Shown here: positions 2,582 to 50,391 of the stretch, one piece after another
Position numbering within the stretch: position 1 is the stretch's first letter
Layout of the letters: each line of letters begins with the position of its first letter
Assembly: GCF_003815675.1 (NCBI RefSeq)
Contig: NZ_CP033918.1
Span: forward strand, 1,054,001-1,118,000
Direction of reading: 5' to 3'
Length of the DNA stretch: 64,000 bases
From: Chryseobacterium sp. G0186
GTDB lineage: Bacteria > Bacteroidota > Bacteroidia > Flavobacteriales > Weeksellaceae
Made by a program: the position numbers and the translations under genes
The notes under the pieces: model-generated
Told to the model about the DNA's origin: nothing
Databases searched by the model: none
The model's input: the letters and a program-made list of their open reading frames with translations, nothing else

Positions 2582-3391
2582 CTAAACTATAAAAAGGGAA
2601 GCAATAGCCTGTGCATCACTACCACTCAAAATTTCATCATAGGCCGCAGAACCTGCTGCTGCTCCAAATAAGGTTCCTGTATTGTAACCTGCCTGATTTA
2701 CATTGTCTTCTCCGGCATAAACAGGATTGGTAGCTGACGGCATATTTCCGCCATTAGCAAGTTCAATCCAGCCTTTATTAGCTCTCATCCTTCTCACCTG
2801 AGAGGCATGTCTTGCTTCAACGGAATGAATCTGTAAAGCAGCCTGAAGCACCACTTTATTTGACATTACATTTCCTGCCTGTCCCTTATAAGCTCTTACT
2901 CCTGTATCTTCAAAAGCCTGTGACAGGGTAAGAAATTGACTGTAATCTGTAAAAGGAGAGAAATTACCATTCGCTGTAAAATCAAAAGTAGGCTTAGCTC
3001 CCGGAGTTGTCCCCAAGGAAGTCAGCGTGCTTTTGAGAAAGCTGACATGAGCTGACTCATGTTTTGAAATCTGCATGAAAACAGCTCTGTCTGCATTAGG
3101 AATCAACCCAGCTGTAGACAGTCCTATACTGTAGTATTCATCTTCAAGATATTCTAATACCAGCGCCAGTTGTAGCGCATCTGTTAAAGTGCTCTTTAAG
3201 GCAGCTCCTGTTTTTTTTACTGTTTCAGCCTTGGCCGGGGTAGCCATTAAAACTCCTAATCCAAGAGGAACAGCTGCTACCGCTGCTTTTTTTCCGAATA
3301 ATGATATATTCGTAAGGGTTTCTAATCTTGTGGCTTCTGCAGTGAAAAATTTATCATGAGAAAGCCTATCTAATAGTCTAAGAATATTCAT
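2582..3391 (-). CDS. Ferritin-like domain protein (Ferritin_2)
   Basis: A 269-residue protein. After a basic N-terminus it has a hydrophobic stretch ending ATPAKAE at about residues 35-56, which looks like an export signal or anchor. The four-helix ferritin-like domain carries the expected diiron ligand sets: LEYLEDEYY, HESAH, FEDTGV and VEARH. It probably binds two metals; the function in this family (PF13668, related to desiccation-associated proteins) is poorly known. It lies 25 bases after a paralogue on the same strand and is the last gene of the run msrB, fasciclin, ferritin-like, ferritin-like. It may protect against peroxide or metal stress in the envelope (inference). Confidence 0.8.
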   Translation of the reverse strand: MNILRLLDRLSHDKFFTAEATRLETLTNISLFGKKAAVAAVPLGLGVLMATPAKAETVKKTGAALKSTLTDALQLALVLEYLEDEYYSIGLSTAGLIPNADRAVFMQISKHESAHVSFLKSTLTSLGTTPGAKPTFDFTANGNFSPFTDYSQFLTLSQAFEDTGVRAYKGQAGNVMSNKVVLQAALQIHSVEARHASQVRRMRANKGWIELANGGNMPSATNPVYAGEDNVNQAGYNTGTLFGAAAGSAAYDEILSGSDAQAIASLFIV

Positions 3392-3416
3392 AATACAAGT
3401 TTTTGAAGGTAAGTGA

Positions 3417-4130
3417 TTAATTAATTCCTCTTTCTTTCCAGGTGAAACGGGTTTTTATAAATCCTCCTGCAGCCGCGACAATGTCTTTTGGCTCCTTGGC
3501 AAGATCAAGACCATTAGCATCCACTACATCGTCTCCCGAAAAAGCAGTGGTTCCCGGATTAATCAGGTTTCTGATAGCAGAAGCATGTCTGGCTTCCACT
3601 GAAACGATCTTACCTGCAATAACAAGGTAATCCGGATTGGTAATATATTTTCCGGCACCGTTATAAGCTGCTACCCCTGTATCTTCCAATGCTTTTGCAG
3701 TCGCGAGTACAGAATTTCTATCATTAAAATTGACATTAGCATACTGGAATTCCAGTTTAGGCAGTACATTTTGGGTAGCACCACTGATGGCCGCCTTAAA
3801 GAAATCCCGATGGATAACCTCATGATGATAGAGATCTGTAAATATTTCTTTTTCTACGCTGGAAATTCCGGTGTAAAAATTATTGACTACTTTGGTATAA
3901 AAGTCTGCCTCCAGTTGCTCAAGGGCATAAGCATAATTCAATATGCCCACATCACCCGTTCCAAGGTCAAAAATCTGATTATTATCTCCAAACTGAAAGT
4001 CATCATCATTATCACAGCCTACCAGGGTAAGTCCGGCAATAGCCAACCCCACGCCTCCTAATTTCAGGAAGTTTCTTCTGCTTGTATCAAGGGTAGCCCC
4101 CTGATTAGAAACATGAATCATTTTTTTCAT
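3417..4130 (-). CDS. Tat-type ferritin-like lipoprotein
   Basis: The start is placed at ATG 4130 (MKKMIHVSNQG). A more upstream in-frame ATG at 4181 would put an odd hydrophobic stretch before the signal. Residues about 16-40 hold the twin-arginine motif SRRNFLKLGG, a hydrophobic core and the lipobox LVGC. The protein is therefore probably exported folded and lipid-anchored. The ferritin-like domain shows LEQLEADFY, HHEVIH, LEDTGV and VEARH, the same ligand pattern as the next gene. Tat export would suit a metal-loaded ferritin-like fold. It is paralogous to, and co-directional with, the gene ending at 2582. Confidence 0.83.
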   Translation of the reverse strand: MKKMIHVSNQGATLDTSRRNFLKLGGVGLAIAGLTLVGCDNDDDFQFGDNNQIFDLGTGDVGILNYAYALEQLEADFYTKVVNNFYTGISSVEKEIFTDLYHHEVIHRDFFKAAISGATQNVLPKLEFQYANVNFNDRNSVLATAKALEDTGVAAYNGAGKYITNPDYLVIAGKIVSVEARHASAIRNLINPGTTAFSGDDVVDANGLDLAKEPKDIVAAAGGFIKTRFTWKERGIN

Positions 4131-50198: not shown

Positions 50199-50223
50199 AA
50201 TGATGAAGCTAATTTTAGCATAA

Positions 50224-50231
50224 CAAAAATA
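50224..50231 (-). promoter_or_regulatory. -7 element of the kinase/regulator operon
   Basis: On the minus strand TATTTTTG fits TANNTTTG, 25 bases before the ATG at 50198. The inner edge of the adjacent direct-repeat pair is 21 bases upstream of it. Confidence 0.5.
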
Positions 50232-50252
50232 ATTATTAACGTAATTTACAGC

Positions 50253-50289
50253 TATTTTATTATACCAAACCTTTATTTTATTATACCAA
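50253..50289 (-). promoter_or_regulatory. LytTR direct-repeat site facing the kinase operon
   Basis: TATTTTATTATACCAA occurs at 50253-50268 and again at 50274-50289, a period of exactly 21 bp. On the minus strand the unit reads TTGGTATAATAAAATA and points to the kinase promoter. Known LytTR proteins bind two direct repeats about two helical turns apart. Confidence 0.75.
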
Positions 50290-50304
50290 TGATCAACGTC
50301 CTGG

Positions 50305-50339
50305 ATTTTGTATAAAAAACCGGCCATTTTGTATAAAAA
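50305..50339 (+). promoter_or_regulatory. LytTR direct-repeat site facing the gene at 50392
   Basis: ATTTTGTATAAAAA occurs at 50305-50318 and 50326-50339, again a 21-bp period. The unit is the same motif as the other pair (shared core TTTKGTATAAWAAA) but in the opposite orientation. It ends 25 bases before TTCCTTTG (50365-50372), a one-mismatch -7 element for the plus-strand gene. Confidence 0.75.
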
Positions 50340-50391
50340 CAAAACCTGCCTTTCATTTTCTATCTTCCTTTGTACAGTAAAATAAACACAT

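Follow-up and report, generated by a model that had tools for sequence, protein, structure and literature searches.

How does a LytS/LytTR two-component system of the Bacteroidota recognise the promoters that it controls? The question is posed by a 193-bp spacer (50199-50391) in Chryseobacterium sp. G0186, which separates an operon for a LytS-type kinase and a LytTR regulator on the minus strand from a divergent operon of two genes, P0004 and P0001, on the plus strand. The window, meaning the whole stretch of 64,000 nucleotides that was analysed, covers positions 1,054,001 to 1,118,000 of the forward strand of contig NZ_CP033918.1 (assembly GCF_003815675.1), and all coordinates are counted from its first letter. 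LytTR regulators are abundant in the Bacteroidota. An operator that is resolved to the base, has a defined distance to its promoter and is kept in several families is directly searchable to assign targets.

In the open-access literature that we searched, no LytS/LytTR system of the Bacteroidota had a mapped operator, the nearest being the repeats of two Bacteroides LRS-like operons. The general form of such LytTR operators, and their mirrored use in a divergent spacer, were known already; the half-site described here, its promoter spacing, the link to a regulator subfamily and P0004 were not found in the open-access literature searched.

Results

The sensor-regulator genes

P0002 carries a receiver domain (Pfam Response_reg PF00072, 3.4e-23) and a LytTR DNA-binding domain (PF04397, 8.1e-18), both above the curated cut-off, and is by this composition a LytTR-family response regulator. 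Its phospho-acceptor was assigned by position to D54, which is invariant among 17 aligned relatives. P0003 matches Pfam His_kinase PF06580 (3.4e-23, 82.1 bits) and HATPase_c_5 (23.4 bits against a cut-off of 22), and so combines the PF06580 domain and the GHKL ATPase of a LytS-type kinase. The pair is not an equivalog of BtsS/BtsR, P0002 reaching 156.8 bits against the NCBIfam BtsR model NF008677, for which the cut-off is 246; nor is it a LytTR Regulatory System of the HdrRM type, since P0002 contains a receiver domain and is partnered by a PF06580 kinase.

The kinase most likely starts at ATG 50198, and not at TTG 50342 of the longest open frame, because residue 1 of the former is where the alignment starts in most orthologs. 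In 50199-50342 (minus strand) the longest frame opens at its TTG within the repeats described below, and as 21 bp make seven codons the kinase-side pair appears in it as a repeated peptide. Features of the locus are collected in Table 1.

Table 1. Genes, predicted promoter elements and half-sites of the locus, in window coordinates.
Feature	Position	Strand	Description
Response regulator P0002	48400..49125	-	241 aa, REC + LytTR domain
LytS-type sensor histidine kinase P0003	49122..50198	-	358 aa
-7 box TATTTTTG, kinase/regulator operon	50224..50231	-	TAnnTTTG; predicted +1 near 50219
Kinase-side promoter-proximal half-site TTGGTATAA	50260..50268	-	exact repeat
Kinase-side distal half-site TTGGTATAA	50281..50289	-	exact repeat, 21 bp upstream of proximal
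Target-side distal half-site TTTGTATAA	50307..50315	+	exact repeat
Target-side promoter-proximal half-site TTTGTATAA	50328..50336	+	exact repeat
-7 box TTCCTTTG, divergent operon	50365..50372	+	TTnnTTTG; predicted +1 near 50377
P0004	50392..50820	+	orphan 142 aa, predicted PD-(D/E)XK-like alpha/beta fold
P0001	50826..51782	+	318 aa, predicted outer-membrane beta-barrel, DUF6268 group; optional second gene

Two mirror-image repeat pairs in the spacer

A first, sequence-only reading of this spacer had described two direct-repeat pairs with a period of exactly 21 bp and opposite orientations, and the coordinates bear this out. Within 50224-50372, an exact pair of 16 nt on the kinase side (50253-50268 and 50274-50289) and one of 14 nt on the target side (50305-50318 and 50326-50339) both have a start-to-start spacing of 21, and stand as mirror images of each other around a common half-site, TTNGTATAA. 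On both sides the 9-nt half-sites are separated by 12 bp, which is the form of LytTR sites given in the excerpted text of PMC4847170. The motif originally put forward, TTTKGTATAAWAAA, is exact in two of the four half-sites and carries one mismatch in the other two.

Each pair had also been said to end 21-25 bases from a -7 element; from the coordinates, the 14-nt motif ends 24 bp from its box on each side and the 9-bp core 28 bp from it, so that the mirror symmetry holds to the base. There is indeed one -7 box per operon, the plus-strand box reading TTnnTTTG and not TAnnTTTG. The Bacteroidota -7 box occupies positions -12 to -5 (PMC9723704, in excerpt), from which the +1 positions of Table 1 were placed; on this numbering the proximal half-sites would lie at about -49 to -41 and the distal ones at about -70 to -62. 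The stretch 50366-50386, which overlaps the target -7 box, matches the kinase-side half-site region (50272-50292) in inverted orientation, though imperfectly (81%).

When the 193-bp spacer was shuffled with its dinucleotides preserved, none of 20,000 shuffles contained a run of at least 14 matches at period 21, and none contained two runs of at least nine at that period. The native spacer itself reaches a run of 16 at period 21, and no more than six when the other periods between 5 and 60 are tried.

Conservation across orthologous spacers

Scanning genome contigs for the kinase produced 80 loci, in 76 of which P0004 is directly divergent; together with the window these gave 77 spacers, leaving four loci (L064, L067, L078 and L085) outside the set. 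Both pairs are present in the window and in all 76 relatives, and the repeats are thus conserved along with the gene order, as the original proposal demanded. With the period left free between 17 and 25, 21 came out best in all 77 scans of the target side and in all but one of those of the kinase side (76 of 77); the exception was L077, whose kinase-side pair is degenerate (12/16). Over periods 10-39, 21 was the single best on 148 of 154 strand scans. Matches to the consensus, out of 16, ranged from 12 to 16 on the kinase side and from 14 to 16 on the target side, the reversed consensus giving 10-12 in all 77 spacers; among 42 spacers mutually dissimilar by 6-mers, both pairs scored at least 14/16 in 41. 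Within the half-site, conservation reaches 1.5-2 bits at G4, T5, A6, T7, A8 and A9, with a free third base and weakly conserved surroundings.

The distance from each pair to its promoter is similarly constrained. On the kinase side, a TAnnTTTG box lies 28 bp from the end of the core in 70 of 77 spacers and 27-29 bp from it in 76, and on the target side a TnnnTTTG box lies at 28 bp in 71 (where several boxes fitted, the one nearest 28 was counted). A box of the expected form was absent from the kinase side in L066 and from the target side in three of the 77 spacers, and stands at 19 bp on the target side of L080. The gap between the two pairs, by contrast, varies from 4 to 26 bp across the 77 spacers and keeps no fixed helical phase, the commonest state being 17 bp (47/77). 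Since the distance to the -7 box is constant and that between the pairs is variable, each pair is tied to its own promoter and not to the other pair. The -33 element shows no conservation, TTG occurring within the expected stretch in 17 of 77 spacers on the kinase side and 10 of 77 on the target side, counts that carry no baseline; both predicted promoters have a good -7 box and no conserved -33 element.

Loci outside the 77 spacers include arrangements with one pair only. The near-identical L064 and L067 have no P0004 and no pair toward the kinase; their target-side pair (16/16) stands 28 bp, by manual count, before TTCTTTTG/TTCATTTG of a DUF6268-matching gene, which in L064 is followed by an outer-membrane efflux gene and then an HlyD-type gene. 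L078 has the kinase-side pair only, with a score of 15. L085 has both pairs at the locus, and further pairs (15 each) precede its TonB-dependent receptor gene and a second P0004 copy that is intact, each with a box or near-box 28 bp on. The P0004-like copy at the usual place in L085 is broken by stops, the intact copy having its own pair (130-570, 623-652, 3300-3900).

The operator follows one regulator subfamily

A search for exact motif pairs at the 21-bp period, as the sequence-only reading had suggested, found 63 matches in 34 of 60 genus genomes, and 61 of them fell at this locus; a reversed control gave five. The same 34 genomes contain P0004 at no less than 53% identity and the kinase at no less than 65%. 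The cassette is patchy, in that 24 of the 60 genomes have neither a P0004 match nor an exact pair, and G051 and G053 possess a diverged P0004 (30-32%) and kinase (46-48%) with degenerate pairs in the same layout. When P0004 was searched for in the family, all 27 loci had a target-side pair scoring at least 14, which at most one in 500 shuffles reached, and 20 of the 27 had a -7 box at 28 bp.

We then defined a full pattern as the pair, 28 bp and TNNNTTTG. Among 148 family genomes it matched in 12, always at this locus except for one match in G166, which precedes a paralogous LytS/LytTR operon. G166 therefore has the operator at two LytS/LytTR systems (C9 near 306383-306531 and C5 894954-895019), so that cross-reading between paralogs is possible. 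Across 395 phylum genomes there were nine matches in six genomes and none for the reversed control, and all nine adjoin a LytS/LytTR system of this subfamily: three genomes account for six of them, all at this locus, and the others (L246, L247 and L248) lie elsewhere, beside kinases 41-50% and regulators 52-61% identical over the part covered. Of the genes that these three sites face, one is TolC-like, one encodes a 229-aa protein whose C-terminus resembles that of P0004 and one encodes a second LytTR regulator. The 229-aa protein (L247, 1584-2273), encoded across from a related kinase, has a short C-terminal motif in common with P0004 (61% over 18 residues, E 0.002) and is perhaps a distant relative of it. 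When up to one mismatch was allowed, with TANNTTTG, a search of 158 order genomes yielded 14 matches, of which 13 fall at LytS/LytTR loci of this kind and one, L249, lies away from them.

Five paralogous systems whose regulators show about 47-56% identity (L240, L241, L243, L244 and L245) have kinase-side pairs scoring 14-16; target-side pairs are present in L241, L243 and L245 and absent from L240 and L244. A box lies at 27-28 bp in L240, L241, L243 and L244 and was not found in L245, and the divergent gene in L241 and L243 encodes a TonB-dependent receptor. L242, a stretch without such a regulator, is also without any pair. Searching 196 order genomes with the regulator alone returned 11 matches, comprising six orthologs, three systems already found through P0004 or the full pattern (G167, G051 and G399) and two new ones, L259 (51%) and L260 (50%), in genomes G482 and G138. 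Both new systems, recovered by regulator similarity only, have mirrored pairs (scores 16/16 and 16/15) and a kinase-side TAAATTTG box at 27 bp; on their target side a -7 box of the expected form was not found. In other genomes, members of the same regulator subfamily are accompanied by the operator at different targets, where the operator and its 28 bp precede a DUF6268-efflux operon, a TolC-like gene or a second P0004 copy. In L256 (G167), the regulator reading frame has an internal TAA.

The genome of strain G0186 itself (5.04 Mb) contains three exact pairs, two at this locus and a third inside an open reading frame, and only the two sites of this locus remain when a -7 box 28 bp on is required. 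A large regulon in this genome was accordingly rejected. L139, a match with one mismatch, has a surrounding 3 kb in which none of the four proteins has a relative. Sites with more changes would be missed, as a search at three mismatches was uninformative, the reversed control giving 520 matches and the pattern 318. The genome encodes 19 LytTR regulators, and at all 18 other loci no TTNGTATAA pair rose above shuffled sequence within 4 kb upstream, their LytTR domains being at most 39% identical where aligned. The operator is thus a feature of this one regulator subfamily rather than of LytTR regulators in general.

The divergent target genes

P0004 has no match in Pfam or NCBIfam and no sequence match among solved structures. 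Its AlphaFold2 model (mean pLDDT 89.3) finds 2inb as its best Foldseek hit (E 3.2e-4), a resemblance to PD-(D/E)XK proteins that is only suggestive. D72 is nearly invariant; downstream of it the alignment consensus is DLK, the window protein has DLN and distant members vary, and on this alignment the catalytic motif appears not to be kept. P0001 is modelled as a barrel (pLDDT 88), and 21 of its 33 aligned members match DUF6268 (PF19783) at E up to 0.1, the best at 8.5e-13; the window protein has no match.

P0004 is found in 77 of the 80 kinase loci and P0001 in 52, one of these being a fragment. In the 25 loci with P0004 and without P0001, P0004 is divergent in 24, with L085 as the exception. 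Given that P0004 persists where P0001 is missing, it is P0004 that forms the constant output. Across the subfamily, targets are mostly envelope proteins.

Discussion

We consider it very likely that both promoters are activated by the LytTR regulator, bound to each pair as a tandem dimer, which would combine positive autoregulation with activation of the divergent target. A stimulated LytS-type kinase would, from what is known of the family, phosphorylate the regulator, and two regulator molecules would come to lie next to each other, each occupying one of two TTNGTATAA half-sites that are separated by two helical turns; a period of 21 places the two LytTR domains on one face of the DNA. The dimer would sit just upstream of the would-be -33 position and recruit RNA polymerase to the promoter. 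The module appears to be built twice, in mirror image, such that one copy would drive the kinase/regulator operon in a positive feedback and the other P0004, with P0001 where present. The binding, phosphorylation and activation in this scheme are drawn by analogy with family members (AgrA, HdrR and YpdB), and its transcription starts are predicted from the -7 boxes; the sequence comparisons show two modules with a fixed internal geometry, mutual independence and a tie to the regulator subfamily. A fixed distance from pair to promoter and a free distance from pair to pair suggest two independent activation modules, and this independence makes positive autoregulation with divergent-operon activation the most likely outcome. 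Wherever the sequence-only reading could be checked against sequence, its predictions held. The original assertion that the binding site is defined from sequence alone is fair as regards the site and goes too far as regards function. As both predicted transcripts run away from the sites, these should act as DNA, and an RNA-level reading (an attenuator or leader element) was set aside.

The regulator might instead bind the pairs and repress both promoters, or block one while activating the other, and negative autoregulation is common at divergent shared spacers. Moreover, AgrA represses bsaA from a site downstream of that promoter (PMC4227749, in excerpt). We think repression unlikely at this locus, however, since in nearly all relatives each pair stops 28 bp short of the -7 box, on its upstream side, and leaves it clear, and since neither promoter keeps a -33 element, as is expected of activator-dependent promoters. 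The position of the sites next to RNA polymerase likewise argues for activation, short of proof, and autoregulation by HdrR through repeats just upstream of its promoter is activation (PMC6193735, in excerpt).

It is also improbable that the four half-sites form one co-operative four-subunit complex, by looping or as a sandwich, with both promoters switched together. All four are kept in one short spacer in most relatives, as such a complex would have it, but the 4 to 26 bp between the pairs have no fixed helical phase and single-sided loci exist (L064, L067, L078, L240 and L244). Some other regulator could be the main binder, the adjoining LytTR pair being only one of the operons that it regulates; the G166 site, standing before a paralogous LytS/LytTR operon as well as at this locus, would fit one regulator serving both. 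This we judge very unlikely, for the sites and this regulator subfamily are gained and lost together across genomes, the 21-bp direct-repeat form is of the LytTR type (PMC4847170, in excerpt) and the 18 other LytTR loci of the genome are without the operator. That the repeats are a chance or structural feature of an A+T-rich divergent spacer, such as curved DNA or a UP-like element, is extremely improbable even with a half-site that is A/T-compatible at 8 of 9 positions, in view of the 0/20,000 shuffles, the base-level conservation at G4 to A9 around a free N with weak surroundings, and the absence of reversed-control matches in 395 genomes.

Several described systems come close to this locus. 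In agr the divergent target is RNAIII, whereas here it is a protein operon. Both loci have a LytTR regulator with paired sites in a divergent spacer, upstream of its own and the opposite promoter; AgrA of Staphylococcus aureus binds direct repeats in the agr P2-P3 region, the proximal ones centred near -60 (PMC4227749, in excerpt), compared with a pair centre here placed near -55. The agr half-site in that excerpt differs in sequence, and its promoters are of the -35/-10 type with long spacers, in contrast to a Bacteroidota -7 box without a conserved -33 element. The locus would seem to work like agr, which is not to claim it as agr. HdrRM and BrsRM share the layout of 9-bp repeats, 12 bp apart, just upstream of a promoter, and HdrR autoactivation has been shown (PMC6193735, in excerpt); their partner, as described there, is a membrane inhibitor without a kinase, in contrast to the LytS-type kinase and REC domain found here. 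In the same excerpt, the repeats of the Bacteroides LRS-like operons stand before a TATCTTTG box and are of 11 bp with 11-bp spacers, and neither these nor the HdrRM/BrsRM repeats have the sequence of those at this locus. YpdB and BtsR of Escherichia coli, which also belong to LytS/LytTR pairs, use two repeats of 9-11 nt, 11-13 nt apart, with a motif kept across related species that have the system; according to the same excerpts their targets are transporters elsewhere in the genome and the YpdB motif is GGCATTTCAT (PMC4847170, PMC5552118).

The locus ties the uncharacterised protein family P0004 to one regulator, and offers a clean test case for class-II-like activation at -7-box promoters without a conserved -33 element. 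More tentatively, and with more doubt than confidence, we suggest a three-part cassette in which P0004 would be more than an output and form the standing third component, for example by acting on nucleic acids as a binding effector or by taking part in feedback with the kinase or the regulator. It would belong to a Bacteroidota LytS/LytTR subfamily with one operator word and one promoter spacing, whose paralogs in one cell may read each other's operators and drive different envelope genes (a DUF6268 barrel, a TolC-like channel or a TonB-dependent receptor).

Elsewhere in the genome of strain G0186, 21-bp repeats of other sequence stand upstream of LytTR operons at three of the 18 other loci (L171, L175 and L177). 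Each has P of about 0.005-0.015 by simple shuffles, a value for the single locus that is uncorrected for the 18 examined, and these repeats are possibly the own operators of those LytTR operons.
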